Source of the DNA: a bacterium
GTDB taxonomy: Bacteria; Sysuimicrobiota; Sysuimicrobiia; Sysuimicrobiales; Segetimicrobiaceae
Reading direction: 5' to 3'
Assembly (NCBI GenBank): GCA_035307765.1
Contig: DATGHU010000041.1
Coordinates: forward strand, 86,089 to 142,186
DNA: 56,098 bases
In this document: positions 23,830 to 52,776 of the stretch, piece by piece
How positions within the stretch are numbered: position 1 is the first letter of the stretch
How the letters are laid out: each line of letters starts with the position of its first letter
Program-made: the position numbers and the translations under genes
The notes under the pieces: generated by a model
Told to the model about the DNA's origin: nothing
The model's input: only the letters and a program-made list of their open reading frames with translations
Database searches by the model: none

Positions 23830-25113
23830 ATGATCGGTAAGCCGGTCTACGACGCGGCCGGAGAGGCGTTCGACACCGTCTCCGACCTGGTGATTTATCA
23901 TGGGACCGAGAAGTTCCCGCGGATCTCGGGGGTCCTGCTGAACGGCGACCGCAGCCGCGTCGCCGTCATCCCGTGGGATGCGGTCGCCGAGTTTTCGCCC
24001 GGCGGCATCCGGCTCCGCGTGGAGCGCCGCCGACTCGCCCCCCGGCCGCTGCAGCCCGACGAGATTCTCCTTCGCGAAGATATCCTCGACACGCAGGTGG
24101 TCGACACCGACGACATCAAGGTCGTCCGGGTCAACGACCTCGAGTTGCGGCAGGTCGGCAACGAGGTGCGCGTGGCCGGGGCGGATGTCGGCACGCGCTC
24201 GCTCCTCCGGCGGCTGGGGCTCGAGCCGGTCGTCTGCCGCGCGTTTGAGCGGGTGGGGCGGCCGTTGCAGAACCGGATCATCCCTTGGAACCTCGTCGCC
24301 GTGCTCGGCGGGACGATGACCCCCCTGCGATTGAGCATCTCGCGGGAGAAGCTCAAGAATATCCACCCGGCGGACCTGGCGGATCTGCTCGAGGATCTCG
24401 ATCGGGACGAGCGGGTCGAAGTGATGACCGCGCTCGCCGACGAGCACGCCGCCGACGTGCTCGAGGAAGCCGAGCCGGACGTGCAAACGACGGTCATCCA
24501 GGAACTGCCGAGTGAGCGGGCCGCCGATATCCTCGAGGAGATGAAGCCCGATGAGGCGGCGGACGTCCTCGGGGAGCTCCCCGAGGCCCAGGCCGAAGAC
24601 CTGATCGCCCGCATGGAGGACGATAAGGCCGAGGAGGTCACCCGGCTGCTCCAGTACGAGCCCGAGACCGCCGCGGGCAAGATGACGACCGAGTTCATCG
24701 CCCTGTCCGTGTCGATGACGGTGGACCAGGTCATCGCGCGGCTGCGGGAAACCAAGCCGGACTCTGAAACGATCTACTACCTCTACGTCGTCGACGACGG
24801 CGGGCGCCTCGCCGGCGTCCTCTCGATCCGCAGCTTGGTCACCGCGGCGTCGGGCACGCCCATCTCCCAGTTGATGCGGGCGGACGTGATCTACGTCCGC
24901 GTCGACGCCAGCGTCGAGGACGTCGCGGGGGCTCTGGTGAAGTACGACCTGCTGGCGGTGCCCGTGGTCGAGGAGGACGGCCGGCTCATCGGCATCGTCA
25001 CGATCGACCACCTCATCGACATCTTGCTGGAAAAGTACGGTCCCCGGAAGCTCGGGGGCGGGTTCGACCTGCTCCGCCGCAAGGCGGCCAGGGAGGGGCC
25101 GGGGGTCCGATGA
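23830..25113 (+). CDS. PRC-barrel / MgtE-N / CBS soluble sensor protein
   Basis: A soluble protein of 427 residues from this ATG. A PRC-barrel-like pair covers about 1-160 (MIGKPVYDAAGEAFDTVSDL; NRIIPWNLVAVL). The MgtE N-terminal helical repeat domain covers about 180-290 (HPADLADLLEDLD, ERAADILEEMKPDEAADVLG), ending in YEPETAAGKMTTEFIAL, and two CBS domains follow (YLYVVDDGGRLAGVLSIRSL; VPVVEEDGRLIGIVTIDHL). The membrane pore of MgtE is absent. In MgtE these parts sense cytosolic Mg2+ and gate the channel. The gene overlaps the next, an Nramp-type carrier, by four bases. 23830 is the first canonical start, but a GGAGGG lies 26 bases upstream and is ideally placed for ACG at 23812, which would add six residues. 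Confidence 0.88.
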   Translation: MIGKPVYDAAGEAFDTVSDLVIYHGTEKFPRISGVLLNGDRSRVAVIPWDAVAEFSPGGIRLRVERRRLAPRPLQPDEILLREDILDTQVVDTDDIKVVRVNDLELRQVGNEVRVAGADVGTRSLLRRLGLEPVVCRAFERVGRPLQNRIIPWNLVAVLGGTMTPLRLSISREKLKNIHPADLADLLEDLDRDERVEVMTALADEHAADVLEEAEPDVQTTVIQELPSERAADILEEMKPDEAADVLGELPEAQAEDLIARMEDDKAEEVTRLLQYEPETAAGKMTTEFIALSVSMTVDQVIARLRETKPDSETIYYLYVVDDGGRLAGVLSIRSLVTAASGTPISQLMRADVIYVRVDASVEDVAGALVKYDLLAVPVVEEDGRLIGIVTIDHLIDILLEKYGPRKLGGGFDLLRRKAAREGPGVR

Positions 25114-26396
25114 GCTTTACGCCGCCGCTCCTCCGCCGCGCCACCCAGAGTGCGGCGATCAGCCGGCTCATGATCTTTTTCGCCATCATGGGGCCCGGCA
25201 TCATCACCCAAAACGTCGACAACGATGCCGGGGGGATCACCACCTACTCGCTCGCCGGGGCGGGGTTCGGCTACGCCATGCTCTGGACCATGATCCCGAT
25301 CACCATCGCGCTCTACGTCGTCCAGGAGATGGCGGCGCGGCTCGGGGCCGTGACCGGACACGGCCTGGCGGACCTGATCCGCGAGCGGTACGGGGTGCGG
25401 ATAACTACCCTCGTCATGCTGGCCTTGCTCCTTGCCGACTTCGGGAACACGATGGCGGAGTTTTCGGGGCTGGCCGCGGGCGGGGAGATCTTCGGCGTGT
25501 CCAAGTACATCCTGGTCCCCATTGGCGCCCTGGCGGTGTGGTGGCTCGTGCTGAAGGGGACGTTCCGCTCGGTTGAGCGGGTGTTTCTCATCGCCAGCGC
25601 GTTCTACATCTCGTATATCGTCTCCGGGGTGCTGGCGCATCCCGACTGGGGGCAGGTGCTTCGGGCCACGGTCGTCCCGTCGTTCCAAATCCGGACCGAC
25701 TACATCATCCTGCTGGTCGGCGTCGTGGGCACGACGATCGCGCCCTGGATGCAGTTCTACCTCCAGTCGGCCGTGGTGGAGAAGCGGATCACCGTCAAGG
25801 AGTACGGCTATACCCGGGCCGACGTGCTGATCGGGTCGATCATGACGGACGTGGTGGCCTGGTTCATCATCGTGGCGTGCGGTGCCACGATCTTCGCGCA
25901 CCACCTGCATGTGGAGACGGTGGGGGACGCCGCGCGGGCGCTCGGCCCGCTGGCGGGGCGGTACGCGTCCGATCTGTTTGCCTTCGGGCTGATCAACGCG
26001 TCGCTCTTCTCGGCCAGCGTCCTGCCGCTCGCCACCTCCTACTACGTCTGCGAGGCGCTCGGCTTCGAGGCCGGGGTCGACCGCACGGCCCGGGAGGCCC
26101 CCGTCTTCTACGGCCTCTACGCCGCGCTGATCGTCGGCGCGTGCATCGTCGTGCTGCTGCCGAACGCGCCCCTGCTCGCGATTCTCTTCCTCTCACAGGT
26201 GGCGAACGGGGTGCTGCTGCCGTTCATCCTCATCTTCATGCTGCTGCTGGTGAACCGGAAGCGGCTGATGGGGAAGTTCACGAACTCGCGCCTGTTCAAC
26301 GTCATTGCCTGGATCACCGTCGTCGTCATGATCGCGCTGACGCTGGCCTTGGTCATCACCCAGATCTTCCCGATCGGCGGCCCCGCACCCGGGTAA
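25110..26396 (+). CDS. Nramp-like divalent metal transporter with altered metal-site motifs
   Basis: A polytopic membrane protein of 428 residues with about 11 hydrophobic segments and the Nramp/SLC11 fold. In helix 1 the canonical DPGN is DAGG (NVDNDAGGITTYS). In helix 6 the canonical M-P-H-N region reads TTIAPWMQFYLQS, so the metal-binding methionine is alanine and the histidine is tryptophan. This departs from Mn/Fe Nramps and recalls the Nramp-related Mg2+ transporters, which I remember as also lacking that methionine. Its ATG overlaps the stop of the MgtE-N/CBS gene (ATGA), so the two should be made together. A carrier for Mg2+ or another hard ion, regulated by the partner, is my inference. 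Confidence 0.88.
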   Translation: MSFTPPLLRRATQSAAISRLMIFFAIMGPGIITQNVDNDAGGITTYSLAGAGFGYAMLWTMIPITIALYVVQEMAARLGAVTGHGLADLIRERYGVRITTLVMLALLLADFGNTMAEFSGLAAGGEIFGVSKYILVPIGALAVWWLVLKGTFRSVERVFLIASAFYISYIVSGVLAHPDWGQVLRATVVPSFQIRTDYIILLVGVVGTTIAPWMQFYLQSAVVEKRITVKEYGYTRADVLIGSIMTDVVAWFIIVACGATIFAHHLHVETVGDAARALGPLAGRYASDLFAFGLINASLFSASVLPLATSYYVCEALGFEAGVDRTAREAPVFYGLYAALIVGACIVVLLPNAPLLAILFLSQVANGVLLPFILIFMLLLVNRKRLMGKFTNSRLFNVIAWITVVVMIALTLALVITQIFPIGGPAPG

Positions 26397-48682: not shown

Positions 48683-49933
48683 TCAGCCCTGGCCGATCAG
48701 CGATGGCTTCGGCGTCACGAACATTGCCCCCGCGCTCACTGCGTAGAGCGCGGACACGGCGGCGAACGCGAGCTGGTAGGTGCCGGAGCGATCGTAGATC
48801 CAACCCGCGATCACAGGTCCGAGGGCGGCGCCGGCAAGGGCGGGGATCCCCTGGACGGCGCTGATTGCGCCGAAGGCGCGGCGCCCGAAGTGTTCGGCGC
48901 GCACCGAGGCGGTGAGTGAAGCGGCGGCGCCGAAGGCAGCGCCATAGACGATGATATAGGCGATCAGCCAGCCGATGGAGCTGGCGACCGTCAGCAGGAC
49001 CACCCCAAGCCCGAGCACGGCCTGGCAGATGCCAAGAAGTAGCTGCGAGGGGAAGCGGTCGCTCATGATGTTGAAGATGTAGCGGCCCGGCAGGCTCGCT
49101 AGGCCGACCATCCCCGCCAACGCCGCCGCAACGGTAGGATTCTGACCGCGGCCGATCATGTAGGCCACCTGGTGGGCGAACAGGACGTTTGATCCCATTA
49201 GCGCAATGCAGTTGGACAGGGTGAGGGTCCAGAAGGGGCCGCGACGCAGTGCGTGCCGCAGCGGGATGCCGGATAGCGGCGTGGTCGGCGTCACCTCCGC
49301 CGCGGGGGTGCCATCTGGGAAGAGCCCCACATCCTCGGGATGGCGCCGCACGGCGAGCACCGCCAGCGGCAGTGCGATGCTCAACTGCGCCAGGCCGAAG
49401 ATGACCAGCGTTTCCCGCCAGCCGACGCGCGGCACCAGCCAACCGGCCAGTGGGATGAAGATGGGCGACGCCAACCCGCCCAGCACCGTCAGCAGCGCCA
49501 TCGCTGACCCCCGCCGCCGGTGGAACCAGTTCGCCACGACGGTGAAGGTGACCGGGTAAAGGGTCATCGACCCGGCCACGCCCAGCCCTCCCCCCCACAG
49601 CAGATACCACTCCCAAAGCTGGTCGACCTTGGACAACCCAATGAGCGAGAGGCCGGCAAGGATGGAGCCGCAGGCGAGGACCGCGCGTGCGCCCTTCCGG
49701 TCTACCCAACGGCCGATGGGATAGCCGAGCAGTCCAGAGACCACGAGGGCGATCGAGTAGCTCAGGGACAGCTCTGCTCGGCTCCAACCCAGCTCCCGTC
49801 CAAGCGGGAGGACCAGCACGCCAAAGAAATACTGAACAGTCCCGTAGGCGATAATGGTGATGACGCCGAGGGCCACTAGGAGTTTCCAACCGTAATAGAG
49901 GCCCCCTCGGGCGGCGATCGGCATGGCTCTCAT
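48683..49933 (-). CDS. MFS transporter (monocarboxylate/OFA-like)
   Basis: A 416-residue membrane protein with 12 hydrophobic segments. It begins YYGWKLLVALGVITI and VQYFFGVLVLPLGRELGWSR, the typical start of MCT/oxalate-formate-like MFS proteins, with the loop IGRWVDRKGAR after helix 2 and a YDRSGTYQLAF loop near the end. The probable substrate is a small carboxylate. The start at 49933 is the longer of two close ATGs (49933, 49924). GC is lower here than in the first 47 kb. Confidence 0.88.
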   Translation of the reverse strand: MRAMPIAARGGLYYGWKLLVALGVITIIAYGTVQYFFGVLVLPLGRELGWSRAELSLSYSIALVVSGLLGYPIGRWVDRKGARAVLACGSILAGLSLIGLSKVDQLWEWYLLWGGGLGVAGSMTLYPVTFTVVANWFHRRRGSAMALLTVLGGLASPIFIPLAGWLVPRVGWRETLVIFGLAQLSIALPLAVLAVRRHPEDVGLFPDGTPAAEVTPTTPLSGIPLRHALRRGPFWTLTLSNCIALMGSNVLFAHQVAYMIGRGQNPTVAAALAGMVGLASLPGRYIFNIMSDRFPSQLLLGICQAVLGLGVVLLTVASSIGWLIAYIIVYGAAFGAAASLTASVRAEHFGRRAFGAISAVQGIPALAGAALGPVIAGWIYDRSGTYQLAFAAVSALYAVSAGAMFVTPKPSLIGQG

Positions 49934-50134: not shown

Positions 50135-50377
50135 TTATTTGACGCGATGGCCGAGGATGCCGGCCAGATCGAGAAAGTGGTAGATCGGCATGCCTGCCAT
50201 CACGATCAGGTATGCCCGCAGGGTCAAGAGCGAGAACTTCACCGTCCTTGTCAGGTGCATCCGCGGAATGTTGACGGTGTCCATCTTCTCCTCCGGTTCG
50301 TCAAACAGCAGATGCACAACAAGATGGGGATGCCGCCGCGTGTCTTTAAAGAGTCGAATGTCCGCCTGAAGTGTCAT
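50135..50377 (-). CDS. Small membrane protein of 80 residues, unknown
   Basis: The ATG at 50377 is preceded by AAAGGAG at ideal spacing, which makes this short frame credible. The product begins MTLQADIRLFKDTRRHPHLV, is charged over the first 45 residues, then has one transmembrane helix (about 50-75: SLLTLRAYLIVMAGMPIYHF) and a short tail. It would sit with the N-terminus on one face of the membrane as a single-pass protein. It lies 38 bases after another tiny membrane protein gene on the same strand, so the two look like a bicistron. I know no family; small subunits or regulators of membrane complexes have such shapes. Confidence 0.55.
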   Translation of the reverse strand: MTLQADIRLFKDTRRHPHLVVHLLFDEPEEKMDTVNIPRMHLTRTVKFSLLTLRAYLIVMAGMPIYHFLDLAGILGHRVK

Positions 50378-50415
50378 GATCGTCTCCTTTCTCGACCTCA
50401 TCGGTCCCCGATATT

Positions 50416-50535
50416 TCAGCTGCCGCCGCTCGGGAACAGCTGAGGCAACGCGACCTGGGCCGCCGGGAGCAGCGACAGGACAATCAGAATCACGATCGCC
50501 GTCCAATTGATCCAGTTGTTCCACGGCCGGTTCAC
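50416..50535 (-). CDS. Small membrane protein of 39 residues, unknown
   Basis: A GTG-started frame encoding one transmembrane helix: N-terminal (V)NRPWNNWINWT, then AIVILIVLSLLPAAQVALPQ and a polar end. Tryptophans at the N-terminal membrane border are typical of real single-span peptides, and the base composition follows coding use. A TTG start seven codons upstream is possible; no strong ribosome-binding site is seen for either. It precedes the 80-residue membrane protein gene in the same direction. Unknown family. Confidence 0.5.
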   Translation of the reverse strand: MNRPWNNWINWTAIVILIVLSLLPAAQVALPQLFPSGGS

Positions 50536-50731
50536 GAATGAGATTGCACATCGCAACCTTCTTAGCATCCTACTGGCTTGCGCTCGCCGAGTTGGGCAGG
50601 CTCGCGGTCCGACATCACAGCCGACTCCATGTACGCCACGGGCCTATCACGCGTAGTGTTTCTGTTGATCTGGGCGGAAATCTCCCCACGTCCCACCGCC
50701 GCTCCCCGGGGCACGTTTGGAGGCTATCAGC
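50536..50731. other. Intergenic between small membrane genes and integrase scrap
   Basis: No coding frame or RNA structure is recognised. The minus-strand promoter for the two small membrane genes is expected here but no hexamer pair stands out. Confidence 0.3.
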
Positions 50732-50824
50732 CTAGCAAAGGTCCTGTTGCCTCAGCCAGGTCCAGAAGTTCCCAAGACCGTACCGGTAGACGCGGAAGGT
50801 TTTGGGCGATCGCCCCTCAACCAT
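50732..50824 (-). pseudogene. Probable tyrosine recombinase N-terminal remnant
   Basis: A 30-codon minus-strand frame reads MVEGRSPKTFRVYRYGLGNF then WTWLRQQDL. This has the spacing T-x3-Y-x3-L-x2-F-x2-W-L of the SAM-like N-terminal core-binding domain of tyrosine recombinases (compare XerD). It stops at once, so only this helix pair survives. It lies 147 bases from the 5' end of tRNA-Arg. The match is short and made by eye. Confidence 0.4.
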
Positions 50825-50970
50825 ACCCGCCGTTTTTAGGCCTCCCAGGCCTTGGAGAAGGAGAGGGCATATGGTAGAGTTTCCATCGGACGCCTCCAAA
50901 GGTGCGCCCCTCCCCTCGGACTGTTGGAACAGGCACGAGCCTGGGGAGGCCTAGTCTATAGGGGTTCAAC

Positions 50971-51046
50971 GCGCCCGTAGCTCAGGGGATAGAGCAGCTG
51001 CCTTCGAAGCAGCGGGTCGGGGGTTCGAATCCCTCCGGGCGCTCCA
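50971..51046 (+). tRNA. tRNA-Arg (anticodon TCG), CCA encoded
   Basis: A full cloverleaf of 76 bases: acceptor GCGCCCG/CGGGCGC, D arm GCTC...GAGC, anticodon arm GCTGC-CTTCGAA-GCAGC with anticodon TCG, T arm GGGGG-TTCGAAT-CCCTC (one G-U pair), discriminator T and genomic CCA. It decodes CGA and, by wobble, other CGN codons. The 3' half is duplicated imperfectly at 52733-52776, the classic mark of an integration site. Confidence 0.96.
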
Positions 51047-51058
51047 AGATTATCAAGG

Positions 51059-51200
51059 TCCAGCCCGGAGACATAGGTGACACTTCGTACCTAAGACATG
51101 GGTAACACTTTCGGGCCGAACGGATTTTCGAGCGGTTCGAGCACTCGGGTCTCCAGATTAAAGTATCCCAAGTCATAGTCCAGAAAGCTGACCATGTCTC
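51059..51200 (-). mobile_element. IS481-family insertion sequence remnant (transposase C-terminus and terminal repeat)
   Basis: Minus-strand codons from 51195 to the TAG at 51093-51091 read MVSFLDYDLGYFNLETRVLE then PLENPFGPKVLPMS, the typical C-terminus of IS481-type rve transposases. Directly after it lie two related 17-base copies, AGACATAGGTGACACTT at 51069-51085 and AGACATGGGTAACACTT at 51094-51110; the former belongs to the terminal repeat (GTCCAGCCCGGAGACATAGG). An in-frame TGA at 51201-51199 marks where the rest of the transposase is lost. The element cannot transpose by itself. Confidence 0.75.
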
Positions 51201-51350
51201 AGGCCGCTCAATAATCAAGCTCTAGGGAAGAAGAAGTCCACCGGTGCGCGAGTTGGGCGAATAGTGCAGTATCGTGGCATCCGCGATGACGCTAACGGTC
51301 ATACGGTTCAATACGTAGGACATTAGAACTTAGGGACCGGTCGAGGAGTA

Positions 51351-51485
51351 ATGATGGCGGATAACGCGGTGCTGGTGATGAAGATCGAGTATTACGCCGA
51401 AGGTCTGGACAGGATCATAGCGTGGAAGAAGCGAGAGGATGAGGAAAGCGGCCGCTTCTTCTGGGGGTACAACGGTACCCGCTGA
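51351..51485 (+). CDS. Possible 44-residue small protein
   Basis: A short frame with GAGGAG just before two adjacent ATGs (51351, 51354; the second is better spaced). The product has natural-looking composition: MMADNAVLVMKIEYYAEGLD, then RIIAWKKREDEESGRFFWGY. It could be a small soluble protein or the front piece of a longer, now truncated gene inside the island scar. No family recognised. Confidence 0.35.
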   Translation: MMADNAVLVMKIEYYAEGLDRIIAWKKREDEESGRFFWGYNGTR

Positions 51486-51600
51486 AGGTAATTCAGTTTG
51501 GGTCGGGGCTTGCAAAGACCCAAGCGACTATTTCGCGCAGGCACCCCGCTGCTCCAAACAACTGGGCTGCCCACTCTGTAATGTCCTTGGGGCAACGCGG

Positions 51601-52392
51601 TCAGCCGTATGGGAGGCCGGGGATCGTGATCGTGATGCCCGCATCGACGGTCAGCACCTGTCCGGTCACCCAGCGGGCCTCATCGCAGGCGAGAAAGACT
51701 GACGCCCATGCGACGTCCCACGCATTTCCTTCTTCCCTGATGAGGCCTGCCGTCGCCCGACCCTCACGAGCCTGAGCGTTAAGCCGCTCGGCGACCAGCG
51801 GTGTGTACACTTGACCCGGCGCAATGCAGTTGACGCGGATGTGCTTGCTGCCCAGCTGGCCCGCCAGCGCAAGCGTCAGTCCGATGACCGCAGCTTTGCT
51901 GGTCGTGTACGCCGTCGAGCGCGCAGGATATGCGCGTACCCCGGCGATCGATGAGATGTTGATGATGGAGCCAGACTTACCAACCAGCATGTGCGGCACG
52001 ACCGCCTGGGCCGCCAGGACCATGCTACGGACGTTGACGCCCATAATATGGTCCCAGGCTTCCTCGGTGATGTCCTCCAGGCTCTGGTTGGAAGGGATGC
52101 CGACGTTGTTCTGAAGGATGTCGAGACGCCCATAGCGCTCGACCGCAGTGGCCGCCAATTGCTGACAGCCCTCGCGATGCGAGACATCGCAGGCGAACGA
52201 CGAAGCCGTGCGACCTTCGGCGACGATCGCGGCCACCGTTTCGTCAGCCCGACTCACGATCTGATCGGCGCACACGACCGCTGCGCCCTCGCGTGCGAAG
52301 AGAATCGCCGCGGCTTTGCCGTTGCCAATGCCCTCACCCCGCGAGCCGGCACCTGTGACCACCGCAACTTTTCCCGCCAGCCGACCGCTCAT
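51601..52392 (-). CDS. Short-chain dehydrogenase/reductase (SDR)
   Basis: A 263-residue classical SDR. It has VTGAGSRGEGIGNGKAAAIL near 12 (the glycine motif is stretched by three residues compared with TGxxxGIG), CDVSHREG, LQNNVGIP where most have NNAG, ISSIAG with the catalytic serine and AYTTSKAA with Tyr-x3-Lys. The extended loop and NNVG occur in some hydroxysteroid or cyclohexanol dehydrogenase-like SDRs. The start at 52392 has GGGAGG about 11 bases upstream. It is the only intact gene between the tRNA and its partial copy, so it is probably cargo of the vanished element. Substrate unknown. Confidence 0.9.
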   Translation of the reverse strand: MSGRLAGKVAVVTGAGSRGEGIGNGKAAAILFAREGAAVVCADQIVSRADETVAAIVAEGRTASSFACDVSHREGCQQLAATAVERYGRLDILQNNVGIPSNQSLEDITEEAWDHIMGVNVRSMVLAAQAVVPHMLVGKSGSIINISSIAGVRAYPARSTAYTTSKAAVIGLTLALAGQLGSKHIRVNCIAPGQVYTPLVAERLNAQAREGRATAGLIREEGNAWDVAWASVFLACDEARWVTGQVLTVDAGITITIPGLPYG

Positions 52393-52732: not shown

Positions 52733-52776
52733 GCCTTCGAAGCAGCGGGTCATTTCGAACCCCTCCGGGCGCACCA
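52733..52776 (+). repeat. Partial duplicate of the tRNA-Arg 3' half (att-like site)
   Basis: GCCTTCGAAGCAGCGGGTC at 52733-52751 is identical to the tRNA anticodon-arm region (51000-51018). It is followed by TCGAACCCCTCCGGGCGCAC and CA, matching the T arm and acceptor 3' strand including CCA with a few changes and a three-base deletion. The 5' half of the tRNA is absent, so it is not a gene. Direct orientation and about 1.69 kb separation fit attL/attR of an element integrated in the tRNA. Confidence 0.8.

Follow-up and report, generated by a model that had tools for sequence, protein, structure and literature searches.

Two small open reading frames (ORFs) on the minus strand of a 56,098-nucleotide stretch of bacterial DNA, hereafter called the window, were shown by comparison with related loci to be the remnant of a putative two-gene operon encoding an Nramp-type transporter and a companion protein. 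The transporter gene is reduced to its last ~41 codons, and the companion gene, which encodes an 80-residue protein (P0001), is intact. The same comparisons showed a family of predicted one-helix proteins that accompany NRMT-like/outgroup Nramps and that in some lineages are fused to the transporter as its C-terminal tail. We have high confidence in this reading as a whole, that is, an Nramp and companion operon remnant, a one-helix family of transporter companions or accessory helices, and an origin by horizontal gene transfer followed by truncation.

Table 1. Features of the window that bear on the ORF pair
Feature	Position	Strand	Basis
PRC/MgtE_N/CBS gene, 4-base overlap with the resident Nramp gene	23830..25113	+	context
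Resident Nramp gene, intact, NRMT-like metal-site motifs, without companion gene	25110..26396	+	context
Intact 80-residue single-span companion gene (P0001)	50135..50377	-	relatives to 51% identity; 17/21 columns conserved in the clade; single helix predicted with confidence (residues 44-71)
Shine-Dalgarno AGGAG, six bases 5' of the P0001 ATG	50384..50388	-	read from sequence
Nramp relic (P0002, 39-residue peptide of the initial annotation): last ~41 codons and stop	50416..50541	-	HMM E 6e-8; conserved columns
Junction between truncated Nramp end and tRNA-Arg; no convincing Nramp sequence	50542..50970		HMM, tblastn, alignment
tRNA-Arg (TCG)	50971..51046	+	context

The 39-residue ORF and its relation to Nramp transporters

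The initial annotation had described two tiny membrane proteins in tandem. Their positions and strand were confirmed, as was the single hydrophobic stretch in each; however, only the gene of the 80-residue protein is intact, the 39-residue peptide (P0002) coming from what remains at the 3' end of a truncated Nramp gene. The tryptophan-rich P0002 frame ends at 50416 and can be read as 39 residues from a GTG at 50535 or as 50 residues from an upstream ATG at 50568, and inspection of the sequence revealed no Shine-Dalgarno upstream of the GTG. P0001 starts with an ATG and has a good ribosome-binding site, AGGAG at 50388-50384. Its codon-position G+C (0.62/0.31/0.73) resembles that of a coding membrane protein, and that of P0002 is coding-like as well, with a GC3 of 0.88.

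Neither ORF matched Pfam or NCBIfam, even at an E value of 10, and PADLOC, which holds described families only, assigned no family to either of them. PHROGs returned nothing for P0001 and three weak matches for P0002 (E 0.05-0.13), all to families of unknown function. The suggestion that the two might be toxin-like peptides therefore found no backing in these collections. The view that they resemble no family stands for the small protein, which curated models lack, and falls for the relic, which matches Nramp.

The first clue to the nature of P0002 was a pair of weak matches, one to the C-terminus of the Nramp resident in the window and one to that of the Nramp at locus L003; its other weak matches formed a cloud in which these two were the informative ones. 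When all six frames of the window were searched with an HMM built from 12 Nramps, two places matched: the resident Nramp gene and the P0002 fragment. The latter scored E 6e-8 over model positions 397-432 of 433, and none of the frames held a third Nramp piece at E ≤ 1. A tblastn search of region 50380-51700 with 89 Nramp ORFs gave 53 matches that passed E 0.1, and the 20 best matches to the relic, all from acidobacterial-type loci, showed 59-76% identity over 32-41 residues. Matches of 14-24 residues elsewhere in this region (E 0.012-0.073) were taken as chance.

When aligned with 22 intact C-termini, the relic keeps 19 of the 22 conserved columns from [WF]VN[RK] onward and 0 of the 10 before, and homology starts abruptly at ~50541, inside a conserved block of the Nramp C-termini. 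The columns kept after the break and lost before it therefore indicate that the Nramp gene was cut at ~50541. Three conserved columns are changed after the break, and these changes include a proline in the helix. Homology over the matching part places the 39-residue piece in the SLC11/Nramp family, but a complete transporter would have 11-12 helices; here the last helix alone is left, and both metal-site helices are lost. As judged from these alignments, the 39-residue ORF is not a gene of its own but all that is left of an SLC11/Nramp transporter, namely its last predicted transmembrane helix.

The companion gene and its family

P0001 begins 38 nt after the stop of the relic; at 21 acidobacterial-type loci, the corresponding distance is -4 to 57 nt. 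It thus occupies the position that defines the family, directly downstream of (or, in other members, fused to) an Nramp gene, but its partner is the relic, and no full-length Nramp is present there. The core (K/R)xxLxxLRxYL at the start of the single helix reads VKFSLLTLRAYL in P0001, and the AlphaFold model of the protein shows one long helix at residues 44-71. The acidobacterial-type N-terminal block VhHPLdD.pEqK reads VVHLLFDEPEEK, with the proline of HP replaced and the rest mostly kept. This change, HP to HL, affects a proline that is invariant in 21 of the 21 other members, and P0001 carries another proline inside its helix; the two features may be a sign of decay.

Homologues, on which the initial annotation had made its proposal depend, exist for both ORFs: Nramp C-termini for P0002 and, for P0001, small proteins with 48-51% identity over 55-62 residues. 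The best relatives of P0001 are the small genes behind the same Nramps that match the relic (L067, 51% over 59 residues; L063, 48% over 62; L038, 43% over 56). Of the 21 columns that are conserved across 21 relatives, P0001 keeps 17; the intact member L063 also keeps 17 of 21, and L074 keeps 17 of 23. Searched independently, the relic and P0001 indicate the same clade. In a joint tree, built on 76 rows and 106 columns of the Nramp C-terminus joined to the companion (L101 was left out owing to a contig cut), the relic groups with L063 (support 0.82) and L073 (0.91) within a 22-member acidobacterial-type clade (0.999). By these comparisons, the 80-residue protein is an intact member of an uncatalogued family of predicted one-helix Nramp companions. 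PDB matches of P0001 to rhodopsin and an ammonium transporter were taken as chance helix matches, and a partnership with the downstream MFS gene (48683-49924) was rejected because the partner of the family elsewhere is Nramp.

With P0001 as the sole query, searches of viral contigs, plasmids, phages, and genome contigs yielded no relative. Against the genomes of the phylum, the protein gave weak matches only, among which L003 alone proved real, by virtue of its Nramp/CBS neighbors and of a profile built on it; a 646-codon frame (L002) had scored better than L003. This first lead, from a search of 61 related genomes, is a 60-codon ORF lying between an Nramp gene and an MgtE_N/CBS gene. A three-sequence companion profile was then run over 386 genomes and recovered more small ORFs. 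We examined in full nine loci from nine genomes other than the source (eight of the 12 non-source profile matches, and G095). The small ORF adjoins an Nramp gene in all nine, and in four a CBS gene is also present nearby. Matches of this profile in G403, G311, G156, and G162 (E 0.001-0.006) were judged from their short loci to be chance.

An Nramp alignment scan yielded at least 570 confirmed candidates, of which the best 80, from many named phyla, were used. A separate small gene lies downstream of the Nramp gene in 66 of these 80 loci (immediately in 55, with an MgtE_N/CBS gene in between in 11). In another 11 loci, the Nramp ORF itself ends in a tail that holds the helix (seven recognized by HMM, four by inspection of the tail), and three loci (L070, L083, and L133) stop at or near a contig end. 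With fusions counted, a companion is present at 77 of the 77 evaluable loci of this sample, which is biased to one Nramp branch because it comprises the best 80 of at least 570 candidates. The counts are of loci and not of independent species, the 80 loci overlap in places with the nine described above, and the same small protein occurs in L106 and L036 and again in L130 and L042. L074 was scored as a separate small gene despite its fused appearance, as it lies in a different reading frame from its Nramp. For L081, the 163-residue start choice is an artefact, and the last 62 residues were used in the tree and profile comparison.

A 34-row companion profile gave 18 matches at E ≤ 0.01 in the 386 genomes. 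Among the 13 with E < 1e-4, 12 adjoin a full-length Nramp ORF or form part of one, and the 13th is P0001 at the relic. One of the five weaker matches (G303, contig C25) adjoins an Nramp; around the other four (E 0.0015-0.008), the loci of ~3 kb contain no Nramp, and these matches look like chance. The 34 members, searched against Pfam and NCBIfam, gave no match better than E 0.016, and in the titles and abstract openings of the literature we found no paper naming a one-helix companion of Nramps. The companions have 36-94 residues and one helix. Their Nramp partners make up a large part of the NRMT-like/outgroup branch, and in ten full-length relatives the helix-1 aspartate is present in ten, the glycine in nine (alanine in L038), and TxxA/T in ten.

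The NRMT/NrmT branch is described as having a metal site with DxxG in helix 1 and TxxA/T in helix 6 (cited part of PMC8806188). An MgtE_N-like gene adjoins most NrmT members according to the cited part of PMC4072509, and an M-box Mg riboswitch is attributed to some members only. The parts of PMC4072509 and PMC8806188 drawn on here describe the MgtE-like neighbor and mention no one-helix companion; likewise, in that part of the 2014 study the MgtE-like neighbor was tested and a one-helix companion gene was not (PMC4072509). Our locus resembles the characterized systems (Ca_c0685, EleNRMT; PMC4072509, PMC8806188) in that the relic is an Nramp and the full-length partners of the companions carry NRMT-like metal-site motifs. 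The acidobacterial-type partner L038 differs from NRMT in having DxxA, not DxxG, in helix 1. No MgtE_N-like gene was seen beside the relic or in the available flanks of the acidobacterial-type loci L055-L075. At Rfam gathering score, no M-box was found anywhere in the window, the resident genes at 23830-26396 included, and these also have no companion gene.

Fused forms and predicted topology

The fusion claim rests on profile comparison. With hhalign, the fused tails matched the separate companions at a probability of 97 and E 1.2e-10, the best of 39 control Nramp slices reaching E 0.067. Scored alone, the seven fused tails found by the small-family HMM are weak (E 2e-4 to 3e-2), and the four others were recognized by eye and by profile comparison. 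A companion-like C-terminal helix was noted in the Nramp ORFs of L085, L109, L111, L114, L118, L119, L120, L126, L129, L131, L132, and L155.

The AlphaFold model of the natural fusion L131 (554 residues; pLDDT 84, pTM 0.84) ends in helices at 429-454, 460-487, and 521-550, the latter two of which are extra beyond the Nramp core, and its best Foldseek match is EleNRMT (7qia). VIA-align superpositions end near residue 458 with the structures that we take to be 11-helix Nramps and at 532-554 with those taken to be 12-helix, end points that by themselves are a hint and not a placement. Lysine and arginine are more numerous before the helix than after it in 33 of the 34 companion members, and this excess suggests that the companion helix runs from inside to outside, with its N-terminus in the cytoplasm. 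The two extra helices of L131 indicate that fused forms seem to add a chain-returning helix before the companion helix; in the model, this added helix would bring the chain back to the cytoplasm, which agrees with the proposed direction.

The companion family would most likely act as an accessory membrane helix of these transporters, comparable to MAP17 on SGLT2. In SGLT2-MAP17, a separate single-helix protein sits on a LeuT-fold transporter and is thought to aid its folding and stability, according to the cited part of PMC10803289. The likeness lies in the proposed role; MAP17 differs in being human, in serving the SLC5 family, and in binding TM13 of SGLT2 (same part of PMC10803289), and no sequence relation is claimed. 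TM12 of the 12-helix Nramps (EcoDMT, DMT1, and NRAMP1) is alike as an extra helix after an 11-helix core; unlike it, the fused member L131 has two extra helices, and a separate companion would run from inside to outside. We propose that the companion would insert so that its N-terminus stays in the cytoplasm and would pack on the Nramp as an extra helix via the conserved (K/R)xxLxxLRxYL face, where it might aid folding, stability, or regulation of divalent-metal uptake. The earlier idea that such pairs could be subunits of respiratory or transport complexes is thus partly borne out, since the family of the 80-residue protein adjoins, and is sometimes fused to, Nramp metal transporters; the 39-residue piece has no share in it, being a gene fragment.

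Origin of the locus and alternative explanations

The source genome contains four Nramp matches: the resident gene, two full-length genes on contigs C18 and C38, and a partial match on C22. The C22 match (L033) has an in-frame TAG and spans positions 157-356 of 357 in the Pfam model, making it another broken Nramp. The C38 Nramp is followed by an intact 94-residue companion (L032:1826-3639), and counterparts of this Nramp in a same-genus genome (G002) and a same-family genome (G006) have similar small ORFs behind them. A DtxR-like regulator, recognized by eye, lies upstream of the C38 pair.

The type of the relic itself was found in none of the other genomes among 43 of the phylum, which together with the joint tree suggests horizontal acquisition. 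The segment 50787-50970 lies beside the same tRNA in G002, at 71% identity, which places the end of the foreign piece between 50541 and 50787. The 3' half of the tRNA-Arg (51000-51046) is repeated ~1.73 kb downstream, at 52733-52776 (19 nt identical and 23 nt at 91%), and the two copies flank a short-chain dehydrogenase gene in an att-like arrangement. Moreover, the tRNA-Arg and the ~148 bases behind it (50970-51194) have 81-94% matches on several contigs of this genome and of the family, often at contig ends. These repeats make the tRNA a plausible integration site, and we infer an insertion near the tRNA-Arg and truncation of the Nramp gene. An integrase remnant suspected by eye at 50732-50899 matched nothing in Pfam or PHROGs and was dropped. 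The simplest history would be that horizontal transfer brought in the window copy as part of an acidobacterial-type system and that the transferred Nramp gene was then truncated beside the tRNA-Arg.

Repeats of this kind also cause mis-joins, so an intact Nramp and companion operon might have been cut by a false join near the tRNA-Arg in this multi-contig assembly. We consider such an artefact improbable: the break lies 430 bases from the tRNA-Arg repeat, and conservation of 50787-50970 beside the tRNA confines any mis-join to 50541-50787. Moreover, an Nramp family search of the genome found no separate 5' fragment, its one partial match being that on C22. That the two ORFs encode small membrane proteins independent of each other, whether toxin-like peptides or parts of an unknown complex, agrees with the hydrophobic helix in each and with the coding-like GC3 of the 39-mer. 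Such a GC3 is, however, as expected for former coding sequence, and the alignment of the 39-mer with Nramp C-termini spans its whole length and begins partway through a conserved block, while its GTG lacks a ribosome-binding site; with no PADLOC match in addition, this explanation is highly improbable.

A different question is whether P0001 still works, having lost its own transporter and serving another Nramp in trans, either the resident NRMT-like protein or that of C38. Its intact ORF and good ribosome-binding site speak for this, as does a conservation equal to that of intact L063, and the cell has three full-length Nramp genes, one of them in the same window and without a companion. We nevertheless think it rather unlikely, as none of the other genomes among the 43 of the phylum yielded the type, which therefore shows no sign of long-term retention, the invariant proline is lost, and the C38 Nramp already has its own companion. 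Within the reading of the pair as an operon remnant, P0001 is probably a decaying leftover, although it could still act in trans with a different Nramp of the cell. We advance only tentatively, and on balance doubt, the bolder view that a branch of bacterial and archaeal Nramps has an obligatory, overlooked second subunit, supplied by a 36-94-residue gene or a fused C-terminal helix, with P0001 a survivor working in trans.

The window locus itself is a small gene ruin that exposes the companion family, for which we found no curated model in Pfam or NCBIfam and which occurs at every evaluable locus of the best-80 sample. The subunit idea can be tested directly on the natural fusions and on the intact pair that this genome carries. 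If the companion is a true subunit, a native partner may have been missing from the transport and structural studies of this Nramp branch.
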